Of a stretch of DNA of 21,708 nucleotides, positions 8,398 through 15,890 are shown piece by piece (position 1 is the first letter of the stretch; each line of letters starts with the position of its first letter). Under the pieces are notes generated by a model. That model was not told where the DNA came from. It did not search any database and saw nothing but the letters and a program-made list of their open reading frames with translations. The DNA is from a virus. Made by a program: the position numbers and the translations under genes. Where the stretch lies: IMG/VR virus record IMGVR_UViG_3300030106_004100, positions 1 to 21,708 of that record, one strand, 5' to 3'.

Positions 8398-8607
8398 TCA
8401 ATCTTTGCGATTGAGTAATTCTAAAAGATCAACACCACGCCAAACAGTTACTCCTTCCGAGAGCTTGATGGGCTTTGGGAACTTGCCTGATTTAACTCCT
8501 AACCACCAAGTTGATTGAGAAACCGGGACTATTGGCGGGATATCCTTGTTTTTATCACCGATAATCTGTTTAAGCCGATAAAAGCTGTCCTGATATACGC
8601 GAACCAT
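8398..8607 (-). CDS. AlpA-family transcriptional regulator / excisionase-like
   Basis: 69 aa. The layout FYRLKQIIG..., then PPIVPVSQSTWWLGVKSGKF, then PKPIKLSEGVTVWRGVDLLE is the compact winged-HTH pattern of the AlpA family: r.k.vi.....p.s.sTww..vk.G.FP.P.kl......WR..di...l. These DNA-binding proteins regulate prophage and satellite genes or act as recombination directionality factors. ATG at 8607 with AGGATC about 9 bases upstream. It is transcribed leftward, divergent from the 8818 gene across an operator-rich region, as expected for a switch regulator. No integrase is seen in the window, so regulation is a more economical guess than excision. Confidence 0.78.
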   Translation of the reverse strand: MVRVYQDSFYRLKQIIGDKNKDIPPIVPVSQSTWWLGVKSGKFPKPIKLSEGVTVWRGVDLLELLNRKD

Positions 8608-8714
8608 ATGATTTGATCCTGTTCTATTAGTTTCAGGGAAATGTTATTCAGGCATGGTGTCTACAACAAGAAAAAGCTCGCGCAAATAATAATGCGTAAT
8701 TAACAGCGCGAAGC

Positions 8715-8759
8715 TTAGTGCAGAAAAATAGCTTAATTAATTGCACTAAATTAATTGCA
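8715..8759. repeat. Operator-like repeats in the divergent AlpA/8818 promoter region
   Basis: ATTAATTGCA occurs twice in the same orientation (8736-8745 and 8750-8759, 14 bases start to start). TTAGTGCA (8715-8722) is inverted as TGCACTAA (8742-8749). A looser inverted pair, AGCTCGCGC at 8675-8683 and GCGCGAAGCT at 8706-8715, lies next to them. Together with the palindrome at 8758-8771 this makes a densely repetitive 100-base control region between divergent genes, probably bound by AlpA or another phage regulator. Confidence 0.5.
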
Positions 8760-8782
8760 TTACATGTAATGATATGTATAAT
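8755..8782 (+). promoter_or_regulatory. Sigma70-type promoter for the 8818 gene
   Basis: -35 TTGCAT (8755-8760), 16-base spacer, -10 TATAAT (8777-8782, perfect consensus). The predicted transcription start is near 8789, about 30 bases before the ATG at 8818. The spacer is occupied by a perfect palindrome, so the promoter is probably repressed by a dimeric regulator. Confidence 0.7.
8758..8771. promoter_or_regulatory. Palindromic operator CATTACATGTAATG
   Basis: A perfect 14-base palindrome lying from the end of the -35 hexamer into the spacer of the rightward promoter. Bound protein would block RNA polymerase. Candidate binders are the AlpA-type protein (8398-8607), the small basic protein at 9117-9281 or the HTH protein at 12518-12718. 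Confidence 0.6.
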
Positions 8783-8817
8783 GGTTCTTGTAAGTTAAAT
8801 AAATCAAGGGGAACAAA

Positions 8818-9102
8818 ATGAAAAAAAGATTTCAAAACATTTCAGATTATGAAAGAGAGTCCTTAACTCATCTTTACGCTTCTCTTACCTTCTGCGAAGA
8901 AAACGAATTGCCGACAAGAGAAATTAAAAAGGCGATCCGACATATAGAAATAAAAATTGAATATCACGAGAGAGAGACTCGGGTACAAGAAAAAATTGCC
9001 AAGATAAAAGCAAAATATAAAAACTGGCCTATCAGTGCTGTTCAAGTTGATCATGGGGGGGTTCGCAAAGAAACATCTCGCATGAAAGACTTTGTTGTAT
9101 AA
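8818..9102 (+). CDS. Unknown 94-aa early protein
   Basis: ATG at 8818 behind an AAGGGGAA site, first gene after a strong consensus promoter. The protein is charged and helical: an N-terminal part (SDYERESLTHLYASLTFCEE) and a long Lys/Glu/Ile-rich helix at about 33-68 (IKKAIRHIEIKIEYHERETR onward) that may be a coiled coil, then a polar tail with HGG. I recognise no family. Expressed alone with the small basic gene that follows, opposite to AlpA, it may be an early regulator or a host-interaction factor. Confidence 0.6.
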   Translation: MKKRFQNISDYERESLTHLYASLTFCEENELPTREIKKAIRHIEIKIEYHERETRVQEKIAKIKAKYKNWPISAVQVDHGGVRKETSRMKDFVV

Positions 9103-11600: not shown

Positions 11601-11941
11601 TAGCTTACTCCCTCTTTAGATTTTACTCCTTCCAGTTGGAGATTCAAGTCTGTCGCAGCCCACGCCTCTACTTTAGAAAGGAGAGCGTTCATTGAGATAA
11701 AATTATTTTTTCTGTCGTACTCACTCAAATCAAAGTCCATTTGCTTGTATTGGTGACTTCGCATTGGAATGACTCTTTCTTTGAGTCCCGGTACTTTGAC
11801 TCTCTTCGTGTTGCCCAACTCTATAAGAATCAACTCTTTTACGGTGTCGTGAGATACAGCCACGCCTGAGTCTTGAAGGTGACTAGCAATGACTCGACTC
11901 CATTTGTGAAGGCAGTCATTCTGTTCAAGCGACCGTTTCAA
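11600..11941 (-). CDS. NinB-like / recombination-associated protein
   Basis: 113 aa. The start KRSLEQNDCLHKWSRVIASH followed by VKELILIELG and later VIPMRSHQYKQMDFDLSEYD resembles NinB-type proteins (R..EQN...H.w...i......g......w K..i......g......vPm..s...l...e), single-strand DNA binders that assist phage recombination. It is immediately upstream of the Cys4 gene and ninG, which fits. The only available start is TTG at 11941, overlapping the upstream gene by 17 bases. Family membership is moderately supported. Confidence 0.5.
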   Translation of the reverse strand: MKRSLEQNDCLHKWSRVIASHLQDSGVAVSHDTVKELILIELGNTKRVKVPGLKERVIPMRSHQYKQMDFDLSEYDRKNNFISMNALLSKVEAWAATDLNLQLEGVKSKEGVS

Positions 11942-12341
11942 GTTCAGTAGCCCTATAGTTTGAGAAAACCCATTTTTTGTTTTTAAGTCTCAAGTGATAG
12001 AACTCTTCTCCGTTCTCGCAGATGTCCTCGTGTCTCCGGGTGAAGTTATAGCTATCGCACTTTTCGCACCAAGTCTTCTCTTTAATTCCTGACATCCTTG
12101 CGAATTGACTAGCTCTCTTGTAATTGTCTTCCCAACATCTTTGATTCAACCAAGTCGCGGGGTTCTTGATGAACTTGCCCTCTAACCAATCTGCATCAGT
12201 TTTAAGGCGTTGTGGAAGGTGGTCTAAAATAAGCTCATGCTCTGCCTTGGTATACTTTTTCCAGCTTGCAAAGGCGGCTCCCTTCCCGGTCTGCTTGGGG
12301 TACAAGCTCCAAAAGTGTTCAAAGTTTTGAGTATATTCCAT
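11925..12341 (-). CDS. Helicase-loader / replisome-organiser-like protein with zinc motif
   Basis: 138 aa from the ATG at 12341, preceded by GGGAGA; a TTG at 12356 would overlap that site. N-terminal pattern FEHFWSLYPKQTGKGAAFAS WKKY (7-30) and FIKNPATWLNQRCWED (57-72) match the C-terminal domain of DnaT/replisome-organiser phage proteins (F..fW..YP.K.gK..A...W.k ... f.php.tWLnq..We). A C2HC-type zinc site follows: C92, C95, H104, C108. It is thus a stand-alone version of a domain usually at the end of longer initiator proteins. It likely helps recruit host DnaB helicase to the phage origin; this is inferred from the family. Confidence 0.68.
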   Translation of the reverse strand: MEYTQNFEHFWSLYPKQTGKGAAFASWKKYTKAEHELILDHLPQRLKTDADWLEGKFIKNPATWLNQRCWEDNYKRASQFARMSGIKEKTWCEKCDSYNFTRRHEDICENGEEFYHLRLKNKKWVFSNYRATELETVA

Positions 12342-12517: not shown

Positions 12518-12718
12518 CTATTTCCTTTTTCTGACTAAATTCAAAGACTTACCCGAAAGATACTCGTACAACCTTTCTATCTTCAAAACGCCAGGATCAT
12601 CCCAATAATCATTTTTCAAATGATATAGCCACCTTTCTTTAAGGTTACAATCCTTTGCAATCTTTGGAAGCGGCTTTGGACTTTCCCGCAATAATTCAAT
12701 CGTCTTCTCTTTTAGCAT
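12518..12718 (-). CDS. Small HTH regulator (Cro/repressor-like)
   Basis: 66 aa. KTIELLRESPKPLPKIAKDC followed by NLKERWLYHLKNDYWDDPGV and LKIERLYEYLSG gives a helix-turn-helix: helix 2 PKIAKDC, turn N-L, helix 3 ERWLYHLKN. The pattern t..lL..s...l..ia...gls.rWl..l..g...dP.v..i..L..yL is common in small phage Cro-like repressors. It is divergent from the early recombination operon, with a palindromic operator between them. Its predicted promoter would start transcription exactly at the ATG (leaderless), as in lambda cI from PRM. It probably represses the early operon and itself. Confidence 0.72.
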   Translation of the reverse strand: MLKEKTIELLRESPKPLPKIAKDCNLKERWLYHLKNDYWDDPGVLKIERLYEYLSGKSLNLVRKRK

Positions 12719-12724
12719 CCTGAC

Positions 12725-12752
12725 ATCATAACCATTTTTTGTTTGTATTCAA
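12725..12752 (-). promoter_or_regulatory. Promoter for the HTH regulator, probably leaderless
   Basis: Read on the minus strand: -35 TTGAAT (12752-12747), 16-base spacer, -10 TATGAT (12730-12725). Only six bases separate the -10 from the ATG at 12718, so initiation would fall on the start codon and no ribosome binding site would be needed. The palindrome 12749-12762 covers the -35. Confidence 0.5.
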
Positions 12753-12766
12753 CTGCAGTTGATAAT
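12739..12766 (+). promoter_or_regulatory. Early rightward promoter
   Basis: -35 TTGTTT (12739-12744), 16-base spacer, -10 GATAAT (12761-12766). The predicted start near 12773 leaves a leader of about 36 bases to the ATG at 12809. The palindrome 12749-12762 fills the end of the spacer and touches the -10. A second possible -10, AATAAT at 12784-12789, pairs with TTGATA (12759-12764) at a long 19-base spacing. Confidence 0.5.
12749..12762. promoter_or_regulatory. Palindromic operator TCAACTGCAGTTGA
   Basis: A perfect 14-base palindrome located between two divergent genes and overlapping the predicted -35 of the regulator promoter and the spacer/-10 of the early promoter. One bound dimer could control both directions. 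The adjacent HTH protein is the obvious candidate. Confidence 0.65.
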
Positions 12767-12808
12767 TCTTTTTTCATGTGCATAATAATACAGATCAGGG
12801 AGGACATT

Positions 12809-13090
12809 ATGACAAACGATCAATTAATCAAAGAGAGTGAACGGATTGGCCGGGACGAGTACAGCGTTTGGGCTGAGTTTAGGGACGACGAAACTGGATT
12901 AGTCTGGACAGTGAAACAGTTAAAGGGTGATCTTTCAGAATCAGATAATCCTCTGCAACTATTGGAGGGAATCGTAAAAGGTTATGAGTTTTGGAAAGAC
13001 GAGAAAAAAGATTGTGCTTTATCGCATGATCCCTCTGTTGGTTTTGACGCAACAGACGACATCCGTTTCGTCAAGGAGCATAACCTATGA
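12809..13090 (+). CDS. Unknown 93-aa first early protein
   Basis: Starts at the ATG 12809, behind a strong GGGAGGA site. The frame is open further upstream, but that would run through the operator. The protein is acidic: SERIGRDEYSVWAEFRDDET, then a VWTVKQLKGDLSESDNPLQL stretch and KGYEFWKDEKKDCALSHDPS. Two Trp-containing beta-like segments suggest a small mixed fold. I recognise no family. As the leading gene of the early operon it may be a host-takeover or anti-host protein. Its stop overlaps the next ATG (ATGA). Confidence 0.6.
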   Translation: MTNDQLIKESERIGRDEYSVWAEFRDDETGLVWTVKQLKGDLSESDNPLQLLEGIVKGYEFWKDEKKDCALSHDPSVGFDATDDIRFVKEHNL

Positions 13091-13263
13091 GCCTCAAGAA
13101 CCTTAGCATCCTTGCAGCGATTCTTTTAGCTCTTGGGTGGATTGGAAATCAAGACTATCAAGACGAGTTAATCGAAGAACAGCAGTATTTCAAAGACGTT
13201 TGTGATGGTATTCATCCAGACTACAAAAACCTTCAACCACCATGTTCAATCAAGGGGAACTAA
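13087..13263 (+). CDS. 58-aa small membrane protein
   Basis: ATG at 13087 inside an ATGA overlap, TAA at 13261-13263. The N-terminus MSLKNLSILAAILLALGWIG is a single membrane span with a positive start (or an uncleaved signal). A Gln/Glu-rich stalk follows, then YFKDVCDGIHPDYKNLQPPC with two Cys that could form a disulfide outside the cytoplasm. Short phage proteins ending in ..Y...Vc.G..PDYk are familiar to me from early regions, function unknown. It may sit in the inner membrane and influence superinfection or host physiology. Confidence 0.6.
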   Translation: MSLKNLSILAAILLALGWIGNQDYQDELIEEQQYFKDVCDGIHPDYKNLQPPCSIKGN

Positions 13264-13264
13264 T

Positions 13265-13888
13265 ATGTTAGAGATAAACAAAAATCTAGAAACACAAGCC
13301 TTTATGACTGCACTTGTAAAGGCTCAGTCAGAGATCACTCACGCAAGTAAAGACAAGAAAAACCCTCACTTCAATTCTAAGTACGCCACGCTAGAGGCTA
13401 TCATCGATGCAGTTAAGGAGCCTCTCAACAAGAACGGCATTTTCTATCAGCAGAAAGTACACGAGCGTGAGAACGCTGTTTGTGTTGAGACAATCTTCCA
13501 CGGCCCGGATGGTCAGATGAGCTTTGGGCTTACGACTGTGCCACTGGATAAGAACTCGCCTCAAGGGTATGGATCTGCCCTGACATACGCAAAACGATAC
13601 TCACTTGCTACAGCTTGCGGAATCGGGTCGGATGAAGACGATGATGGAAATGGTGCGGAAGCCACTCACAAGAAAAGCACCAAAGAACAAATCAAGAAGA
13701 TTGGCAAAATGCCAAAGCAAGAAGTTAAAGAGAGTGGAATCATTGCAAAAGCCCTTGAAGCAAAAATAGTTTATCCCAAAACAATCGAAAACTGGCGCAA
13801 AGAAAAGATGACTGACGCAGAGATAGAGGCAAAGCTAAAAAGAGCTTTAGATCAAGCAACTCAAAAGGCTGTTACTGATGGACAATAA
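13265..13888 (+). CDS. erf: ERF-family single-strand annealing protein
   Basis: 207 aa from the ATG at 13265 with AAGGGGA upstream; the frame is open earlier but would overlap the membrane-protein gene. ERF signatures: KDKKNPHFNSKYATLEAIID, PLNKNGIFYQQKVH, VETIFHGPDGQMSFG, QGYGSALTYAKRYSLATACG and the acidic SDEDDDGN. The C-terminal third is a Lys/Glu-rich helical tail. ERF (as in P22) forms rings on single-stranded DNA and anneals complementary strands during circularisation and recombination. It is followed at an 11-base overlap by its nuclease partner, a Redbeta/Redalpha-like arrangement. Confidence 0.92.
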   Translation: MLEINKNLETQAFMTALVKAQSEITHASKDKKNPHFNSKYATLEAIIDAVKEPLNKNGIFYQQKVHERENAVCVETIFHGPDGQMSFGLTTVPLDKNSPQGYGSALTYAKRYSLATACGIGSDEDDDGNGAEATHKKSTKEQIKKIGKMPKQEVKESGIIAKALEAKIVYPKTIENWRKEKMTDAEIEAKLKRALDQATQKAVTDGQ

Positions 13889-14696
13889 ACGAGTCTTTTT
13901 TGAGCAAGGTTCCCCGGAGTGGCTGGAGTGGCGAGGGTCACTCCGAACCGCCTCTGAAACTCCGACCGTTATGAATCTTAACCCTTATCAGTCGCAAAAC
14001 GCTTTACGGAAGCAAAAGGCAGAGCAAAAACCCACTTTTGTTAACGAGGCGATGGTCAGAGGCTCAAACATGGAGCCTATTGCTAGGGCAGCAGTAGGGG
14101 AGGAGCTTGGAATACATTTGGAGCCACGTTGTTATGAAATGGGGCTTTTTGGAGCCTCTCTGGACGCTTTTGGCGAACTGGAAGGGGTAAAGGTCATCGT
14201 AGAGATAAAATGCCCCTCAAGCCCTTCTAGTGCGTACTGGAGCGATTTGGACGAAAAGCACCCTGCATTTTGGCAATTAGTTCACCAAAAACTTTGTTCC
14301 GGGGCTGAACGGACGTTTCTTTACACTTATGACGAGGGACGCACCCGACTTCAAGAATGTCATATCACTGAGGATCATTTCACCCAACTCATAGAAGCAT
14401 GGAACAAGTTTGAATCTGAGCGAGTAGACGAGGCTTTTGAAAAGATTGCGACTGAGTACAAGAGCCTCAAAAGAATCGAGAAGCAAATCAAAGACGAATT
14501 GGATGAAATCAGTAAAACCCTAAAGGATCAGGGCGAGTGTTTTGGCTTTGGAGTGACAATTAAAACTGTTCAAAAAAAAGGATCTCTTAATCTTAAAAAG
14601 TTGGAGGAGGAAGATCCCAATCTTTTCAAGCAGCTCGAACCGTATTTTTCCAAGTCATCGAGTTACAAAAAAATCAACATAACAGAGGCAAACTGA
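13878..14696 (+). CDS. YqaJ-family viral recombinase exonuclease
   Basis: 272 aa. The YqaJ/lambda-exonuclease fold shows in order: GSPEWLEWRGSLRTASETPT (11-30), RGSNMEPIAR with E66, GASLDAF with D96, VIVEIKCPSS with E109-x-K111, and FWQLVHQK with Q133/Q137. These are the metal-binding and catalytic residues of the PD-(D/E)xK group. The C-terminal 90 residues form a coiled coil (about 180-225) and a basic end. It would resect 5' strands to give the tails that ERF anneals. The ATG at 13878 lies within the end of erf, and its TGA overlaps the next ATG (TGATG). Confidence 0.92.
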   Translation: MDNKRVFFEQGSPEWLEWRGSLRTASETPTVMNLNPYQSQNALRKQKAEQKPTFVNEAMVRGSNMEPIARAAVGEELGIHLEPRCYEMGLFGASLDAFGELEGVKVIVEIKCPSSPSSAYWSDLDEKHPAFWQLVHQKLCSGAERTFLYTYDEGRTRLQECHITEDHFTQLIEAWNKFESERVDEAFEKIATEYKSLKRIEKQIKDELDEISKTLKDQGECFGFGVTIKTVQKKGSLNLKKLEEEDPNLFKQLEPYFSKSSSYKKINITEAN

Positions 14697-14929
14697 TGCT
14701 TGCAGAACGAGGTGAAGATTTTAAAAAAAACGTCATTGGTATTATCTATGCAGATGGCAAAGACGGAGGAACACAACTATTTTTAGATTCAGTTTTTTTA
14801 ATGCATCCGTCTGAAATAACTGCTGATGTACTGGCCGATCTGAGTTTTGAGATAAAAATGATGTCTAAAGACATATATGATCTAGCGGTAGAGAAAGGAA
14901 AAAAGGAGCGTAAAGATGTCAGTGAATAA
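14696..14929 (+). CDS. Unknown 77-aa protein between exonuclease and SSB
   Basis: ATG at 14696 coupled to the exonuclease stop (TGATG); its end overlaps the ssb start by 14 bases. A predicted beta-rich N-terminal half (FKKNVIGIIYADGKDGGTQL FLDSVF) precedes a helical half (EITADVLADLSFEIKMMSKD) and a Lys-rich tail. No family recognised. Co-translation with recombination genes suggests an accessory DNA-metabolism role. Confidence 0.62.
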   Translation: MLAERGEDFKKNVIGIIYADGKDGGTQLFLDSVFLMHPSEITADVLADLSFEIKMMSKDIYDLAVEKGKKERKDVSE

Positions 14930-15272
14930 AGTGATTTTGGTCGGGAATCTAGGCAGAGATCCTGATATTAAATATTGGGAGGATGGTACTAAGACCATGA
15001 CCATCAGCCTTGCTACTTCCGATAAATGGAAAACGCCTGAAGGTGAAAGAAAAGAATCAACTGAATGGCACAAAGTAGAGTTTAGAGGGGCAATTGCAGA
15101 AATAGCTGACACGCTCAAGAAAGGTTCAAAGATATATGTCGAGGGCAAGATTCAGTATCGGGAATGGGACAAGGACGGAGAGAGGAGATTTTCGACAATC
15201 ATTAAAGCCTTCAACTTCCAATTCCTGTCACCAAAAGATGAACCGCTTGTAGACGATGACATCCCATTTTAG
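14916..15272 (+). CDS. ssb: Single-stranded DNA-binding protein
   Basis: 118 aa. A classic bacterial-type SSB OB fold: NKVILVGNLGRDPDIKYWED at the N-terminus, TMTISLATSDKW, STEWHKVEFRG, KGSKIYVEGKIQYREW, then a very short linker and the acidic tip DDDIPF. That tip is the partner-recruiting tail of cellular SSBs. The linker is much shorter than in E. coli SSB (177 aa). It coats single-stranded DNA and probably coordinates with YqaJ/ERF and replication. An AAGGAGCG site is embedded in the preceding gene just before the ATG. Confidence 0.95.
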   Translation: MSVNKVILVGNLGRDPDIKYWEDGTKTMTISLATSDKWKTPEGERKESTEWHKVEFRGAIAEIADTLKKGSKIYVEGKIQYREWDKDGERRFSTIIKAFNFQFLSPKDEPLVDDDIPF

Positions 15273-15311
15273 GAGTCAGAATCAGAGCAAGACACACTAA
15301 GGAGATGTAAA

Positions 15312-15536
15312 GTGAATAAACAACTGTGGCAAAGAGCTTACCATCTTGGAAGGTTTGCATTTCGAGATGAAAAAGCAGCTTACATATCAGCTAACCATGA
15401 GGGGCTGGTAAAAGAAATGCTTGTTGCACGAGATTGTTGGGTGCGAGGAAATACTAATTGGGAAGACACGGACTTTATAAGTCGCTGCCAAAGAGTTTAT
15501 CAACAGAAATTGTACGACAATTTGAATGATTCATAA
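15312..15536 (+). CDS. Unknown 74-aa protein, GTG start
   Basis: GTG at 15312 with a GGAGAT site 6 bases before it; there is no ATG option that preserves the N-terminus. The protein is a compact helical one rich in aromatic and basic residues: LWQRAYHLGRFAFRDEKAAY, then a CWVRGNTNWEDTDFISRCQR stretch. No family recognised. It lies in the early operon between ssb and the last gene. Confidence 0.55.
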   Translation: MNKQLWQRAYHLGRFAFRDEKAAYISANHEGLVKEMLVARDCWVRGNTNWEDTDFISRCQRVYQQKLYDNLNDS

Positions 15537-15554
15537 AAAATAAATGGAGGTAAC

Positions 15555-15890
15555 ATGAATCGATTAGAAGAGATGCAGGAACAGTTTGAGGGTTACCACA
15601 ACAAGTACCCGGAGGTTTGGGAAGAGTTCAAGAAACTAACCTTTCAGATGATTAACACTGGACGTACCAGATACTCTGCAAAAGCAATCTTTGAGGTCAT
15701 TAGGTGGAGTCGAGATGTAGGTGGGGATGGAGTCTCAGAGTTTAAAATCTGTAATAACCACATTCCTTTTTACGCCAGAGCCTTTGTGAAAACATACCCG
15801 GAGCATGAGGGTTTCTTTCAGATCAAGAAGCAAACAAGCGTGTACAAGGTTGCGAACAATTGGGGAGATCCAACGCCAGAGGATGTTTAG
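15555..15890 (+). CDS. Conserved phage protein of unknown function (111 aa), possible winged-helix-like fold
   Basis: ATG at 15555 with a GGAGG site. FEGYHNKYPEVWEEFKKLTF, then YSAKAIFEVIRWSRDVGGDG, then FKICNNHIPFYARAFVKTYP and EGFFQIKKQ. I recall the pattern 'np.vw..F..la......g...ysa..i.e.iRw.......fKi.Nn..pyyaR.f....p...gfF' as a frequent small phage protein beside recombination genes, never characterised. It is the last gene of the rightward operon; its TAG overlaps the stop of the convergent 608-aa gene by four bases. Confidence 0.65.
   Translation: MNRLEEMQEQFEGYHNKYPEVWEEFKKLTFQMINTGRTRYSAKAIFEVIRWSRDVGGDGVSEFKICNNHIPFYARAFVKTYPEHEGFFQIKKQTSVYKVANNWGDPTPEDV

Follow-up and report, generated by a model that had tools for sequence, protein, structure and literature searches.

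A compact divergent control region with back-to-back promoters and a predicted leaderless HTH gene in a marine-type phage

Introduction

How can 90 bp hold the control of genes transcribed away from each other on both sides? The question is raised by a stretch of 21,708 nucleotides (hereafter the window; IMG/VR record IMGVR_UViG_3300030106_004100) from a marine-type phage. As an earlier note on this DNA had claimed, a divergent gap at positions 12719-12808 separates a leftward gene for a 66-aa HTH protein (12518-12718, minus strand, start codon ATG at 12718) from a rightward recombination operon beginning at 12809. The gap has a GC content of 32%, compared to 43% for the window. Our preferred account, held with moderate confidence, combines mutually exclusive promoters, a leaderless mRNA for the HTH protein, a Cro-like autoregulatory role of this protein and the candidate site TCAAC-N4-GTTGA. 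The window was compared with five close relatives from IMG/VR (L001 to L005), in which the HTH protein is 94-100% identical, and with the diverged L009 (58-59% identity); six distinct gaps were found in this set.

Genes around the gap

On the leftward side, the next gene lies 176 bp beyond the HTH gene and encodes a 138-aa replication-initiation-like protein (11925-12341, minus strand; phrog_270, 2.6e-18). The rightward operon, entirely on the plus strand, opens with a gene for a 93-aa protein with no assigned function (12809-13090) and continues (13087-15890) with genes for a small protein, an Erf annealing protein (13265-13888), a YqaJ/RecE exonuclease (13878-14696), an SSB (14916-15272) and others. 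A search for phage DNA similar to the locus gave zero matches.

The gene at the Erf position belongs to one sequence type in the window and to another in L003 (L003:4814-5452) and L009 (L009:2440-3168), in otherwise similar phages, an apparent module swap. After its HNH gene, L003 also carries a 292-aa ORF (L003:7796-8674) that appears PAPS-reductase-like by eye, and the window has no such ORF.

Two promoters and a predicted leaderless mRNA

A consensus scan placed two promoters in the gap; both are putative, being matches to a consensus that may differ from the host's. The leftward promoter, TTGAAT-16-TATGAT on the minus strand, has its -35 box at 12747-12752 and its -10 box at 12725-12730, and ends 6 nt before the ATG, as the earlier note had described for this -10. 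The rightward promoter, TTGATA-16-CATAAT on the plus strand, extends over 12759-12786 (-35 box at 12759-12764, -10 box at 12781-12786), and its mRNA is predicted to start near 12793, with a leader of about 16 nt that includes the Shine-Dalgarno (SD) sequence AGGGAGGA (12797-12804, plus strand). The earlier note had misplaced this second promoter, putting its spacer and -10 in the palindrome discussed below and its start at 12773. Such a promoter needs GATAAT as its -10, a hexamer that is below threshold in the window and broken in L001 (GAAAAT).

The same arrangement recurs in all seven gaps (window, five close relatives and L009): the leftward spacer is 16 bp, the distance from -10 to ATG is exactly 6 nt, and a rightward promoter with a 16-bp spacer stands back to back with the leftward one, the -35 boxes being 6 bp apart, or 8 in L009. 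All six columns of the leftward -35 box are invariant in the six close gaps, and so are the six bases GTCAGG between the leftward -10 and the ATG (12719-12724, minus strand), which have an equal length in L009. The leftward -10 reads TATTAT in L005 and TATAGT in L009; on the rightward side, the -35 reads TTGAAA in L001 and L009 and the -10 reads TATAGT in L009. Over the six close gaps, 28 of the 30 columns in the four promoter boxes and the six bases preceding the ATG are invariant, against 40 of 60 in the remaining gap columns, counts that are descriptive because the gap sequences are related. Shuffling the window gap produced a leaderless-placed promoter in 1.5% of cases, a back-to-back pair in 0.7% and both in 0.1%; the corresponding values for the L009 gap were 1.7%, 0.9% and 0.15%. 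These recurring back-to-back promoters support the earlier claim of a compact divergent control region.

RNA polymerase covers roughly -55 to +20. Since 75 bp separate the two predicted starts in the window, the two promoters should not be bindable together: they would be two sigma-70-type promoters set back to back, both of which could not be occupied by two RNA polymerases at once. Transcription of the recombination operon and that of the HTH and replication side should then exclude each other.

The leftward transcript is predicted to start at the A of the ATG at 12718, so that the regulator would be translated from a leaderless mRNA. This part of the earlier note is well supported as a prediction from sequence: the 6-nt spacing is invariant in seven gaps, the -10 variants (TATGAT, TATTAT and TATAGT) are all promoter-like, and no SD sequence was found before the HTH gene in the window or in L009. 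The operon-first genes at 12809 and 8818 do have one, with SD energies of -11.1 and -7.6 kcal/mol, respectively, compared to -2.2 kcal/mol for the HTH gene and -0.9 kcal/mol for its L009 counterpart. No upstream in-frame start for the HTH gene was found in the window. Distant homologues mostly carry an SD-like sequence before their start, and the leaderless state therefore looks specific to this clade.

The palindrome and its variation

The perfect 14-bp palindrome described in the gap was confirmed as TCAACTGCAGTTGA at 12749-12762, its single occurrence in the window. It overlaps the leftward -35 box as described; on the rightward side it overlaps the -35 box instead of the spacer and -10. 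A palindrome of at least 14 bp was obtained in 54 of 5000 gap shuffles, and about 1.2 are expected in the whole window; the palindrome is thus unusual for the gap (about 1%), not for the window. In the 21.7-kb window, just two perfect palindromes are 12 bp or longer, TCAACTGCAGTTGA and CATTACATGTAATG (8758-8771), each in a divergent gap. The second gap (8608-8817), located between an AlpA-like gene and the ORF at 8818, holds CATTACATGTAATG directly upstream of a TATAAT -10 and also contains the inverted repeat TTAGTGCA...TGCACTAA; it is kept in relatives, with one or two base differences in its palindrome.

Among the six close gaps, the perfect palindrome TCAACTGCAGTTGA is present in two (window and L001) and is replaced by TCAACAACAGTTGA in L002 and L003, TCAACTACAGTTGA in L004 and TCAAGTACAGTTGA in L005. 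Its centre, CTGCAG, has three of six columns invariant and varies more than any other part of the gap; none of the inner changes is compensated, and L002/L003, L004 and L005 each break the symmetry. The L001 gap differs from that of the window by a single, derived change, which makes a 16-bp palindrome, TTCAACTGCAGTTGAA. The L009 gap has only TTCAA and TTGAA arms at another spacing, and the dyad is lost. The earlier note had expected an operator to be conserved in related gaps and drift to refute it, and drift of the perfect 14-mer, up to its absence in L009, is what was found. What remains of its operator claim is the 16-bp extension in L001 and the shorter TCAAC-N4-GTTGA, kept in 5 of the 6 close gaps. 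In four of five close records tested, this pattern occurs once per genome, solely in this gap, and a reversed-pattern control had zero occurrences in the close records tested.

More distant sequences did not extend the motif. In a dyad search over 16 gaps, the window's own palindrome alone stood out (8/300 shuffles), which argues for no shared operator motif. An IMG/VR scan for TTCAA-N3-CAGTTGA-N-AATT returned 107 stretches, with an HTH gene in the known relatives only, so that the others look like chance.

The HTH protein and its homologues

The AF2 model of the 66-aa protein (pLDDT 82.6) comprises four helices (residues 2-12, 17-23, 28-35 and 44-55), the HTH being formed by 17-23 and 28-35. 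The protein is thus predicted to adopt a compact all-helical lambda-repressor-like (Cro/CI/XRE) fold with its HTH in helices 2-3. Among solved folds, the nearest in Foldseek were SinR, CapH, the N-domain of AcrIIA15 with palindromic DNA, and 434 Cro, with probabilities of 0.97-1.00 to SinR, CapH and 434 Cro, yet all E-values were above 0.1. The window protein matched no Pfam or PHROG profile at E <= 0.1; its homologues match phrog_9425/6223 ("transcriptional repressor"), and the family profile matches CapH in the PDB at 0.0012.

Homologues were recovered by tblastn in phages of Rhodobacter, Paracoccus, Stenotrophomonas, Pseudomonas, Vibrio, Shewanella, Sphingomonas, Variovorax, Achromobacter and Escherichia. 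Most of the distant regions read have the gene pointing away from an early gene, with recombination, SSB or ATPase genes nearby, and directly upstream of a primase/helicase gene; 14 further metagenomic or genomic loci have mostly the same layout. The window fits such an HTH module upstream of primase, being divergent from an early operon and followed, 176 bp away, by the replication-initiation-like gene. An HNH-based search added one distant relative (L040), which yielded no detectable HTH homologue. Titanvirus phages are reported as lytic; in this group, the HTH gene is present in two phages, and a longer "endonuclease" version in two others (PMC8601537). In RcThunderbird gene 36 (L023:2683-3189), a GIY-YIG-like endonuclease part precedes the HTH domain in a single fused gene, and sister phages have a stand-alone HTH gene there. 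The gaps upstream of the HTH gene in Septimatrevirus and Paracoccus phages (L043, L046 and L045) contain, close to the HTH promoter, ACAA...TTGT or AATTTTG-like elements; these recall 434-type sites and were not significant in the dyad test.

Possible roles of the palindrome and of the regulator

The 66-aa protein is most likely a Cro-like autoregulator of the gap region; it belongs to a phage protein family whose genes usually stand between divergent early operons. TCAAC-N4-GTTGA would be its best candidate site, where a dimer would cover both -35 boxes. From its sequence, the palindrome is a plausible binding site and possibly a single 434-Cro-like operator; it is rated no higher because its arms are largely the -35 boxes of the two promoters. 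When -35 boxes starting with TTGA are set back to back, TCAA-N6-TTGA arises automatically; the outer four pairs are thus forced, and the inner three alone bear on an operator. The palindrome may therefore be a by-product of the promoter pair, with a CTGCAG centre due to chance and an HTH protein acting elsewhere or otherwise, a reading to which we give slightly less than an even chance. It differs from the preferred account in the role of the palindrome alone, and our confidence in the two overlaps, operator and by-product being almost evenly balanced. Four of the seven palindrome pairs fall in the -35 boxes, no other piece of the gap varies as much as the centre, whose symmetry is broken in four relatives, L009 has 8 bp between its -35 boxes and no such dyad, and the window is long enough for 1.2 such palindromes to be expected, all of which favors a by-product. 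However, the fifth pair, C-G, lies outside the -35 boxes and is kept in 5 of 6 gaps, and the sole difference between L001 and the window lengthens the palindrome, an outcome expected for less than 1% of random substitutions (2/270 possible changes). Moreover, 434-type operators keep their outer bases fixed and vary the inner ones, which makes the drift of the centre weak evidence against an operator.

That the protein acts at another site of the gap, such as the dyad TGCATAATAATGCA over the rightward -10, appears improbable. This dyad is perfect in L002-L005 and scores best in the L002 and L005 gaps, and CATAAT is invariant in the six close gaps; however, it is broken in L001 and in the window (one mismatch), does not exceed shuffles (62/300 and 152/300) and may just be a conserved -10. 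Even less probable is a lambda-like lysis-lysogeny switch in which the HTH protein would be the prophage repressor, close to the genetic switch proposed in the earlier note. The divergent layout, the single candidate operator and a predicted leaderless regulator as in phage PY54 (PMC4488713) could suggest it, as could a weak AlpA/excisionase-like gene at 8398-8607. Against it, six records yielded no tyrosine integrase and three, one of them 34.7 kb long, neither a resolvase nor an HTH_3 repressor, and neither integration genes nor opposing CI/Cro repressors were found in the window and its relatives, all of these records being possibly fragments. In addition, a replication-like gene follows the HTH gene, and homologues occupy an equal layout in Titanvirus phages reported as lytic (PMC8601537). 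A device timing early genes fits better than a lysogeny switch, and a switch in the lambda sense is not supported.

Comparison supports the back-to-back promoters, their spacing, the missing SD sequence and the fold. From these we infer that the HTH protein would bind in the gap, repress both sides and serve infection timing rather than lysogeny. More speculatively, and rather unlikely in our view, the whole may form one 20-bp element, in which the outward -35 boxes are the half-sites of a single Cro-like operator for which two polymerases and the leaderless-made regulator compete, its symmetric centre having been gained recently in the window/L001 clade over an older promoter pair.

Comparison with known systems

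In lambda, cI expressed from PRM is a leaderless regulator, and lambdoid phages carry three-operator arrays. The locus resembles lambda cI and 434 Cro by its predicted leaderless regulator, its fold class and a 14-bp dyad whose outer bases are fixed and whose inner ones vary, but it has one candidate site and no CI partner was found. In the temperate phage PY54, Cro binds one palindrome and the cI and cro mRNAs are leaderless, starting at AUG (PMC4488713). Its divergent regulator genes and single palindromic Cro operator recall the candidate operator and predicted leaderless mRNA of the gap; however, PY54 has two repressors, compared to one HTH protein here with no lysogeny genes found, and its Cro operator is situated upstream of cI, presumably without effect on cro itself (PMC4488713). 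Overlapping divergent C and M promoters were described for EcoRV, and a leaderless C transcript for AhdI (PMC5333194). In the EcoRV region, a small regulator gene similarly points away from its neighbour and the polymerase sites overlap, but the setting is restriction-modification, and the part of that source used here does not describe an operator made from shared -35 boxes (PMC5333194). The Pr/Pc promoters of pLS20 are also overlapping, divergent and adjoining a regulator gene, but they belong to a Gram-positive plasmid with two operators and DNA looping (PMC4207663). Given these precedents, the gap would be a compact new example of known designs, and its unusual point may be that both -35 boxes are shared with a single candidate operator.

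The closest likeness in gene content is with the modules of Titanvirus, Septimatrevirus, Queuovirinae and Lokivirus, where a homologous HTH gene points away from an early gene or operon and comes first before replication genes. These modules differ by gaps of about 130-190 bp in most, by HTH genes that are usually SD-led and directly abut the gene for a primase/helicase of about 740 aa, where the window has the gene for the 138-aa protein at a distance of 176 bp, and by gaps that have no significant palindrome in common with the window. Our literature search found no transcript study of this HTH-primase/helicase module, and most annotations encountered for the recurring HTH gene say only hypothetical or DNA-binding.

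If true, the proposed arrangement would make this gap both a very compact control region for divergent genes and a simple test bed for the mutual exclusion of promoters combined with a leaderless autoregulator. In many phages, including some reported as lytic, the small HTH gene is again found next to a divergent gene and precedes primase/helicase genes, and a common device for timing early genes could emerge among them.
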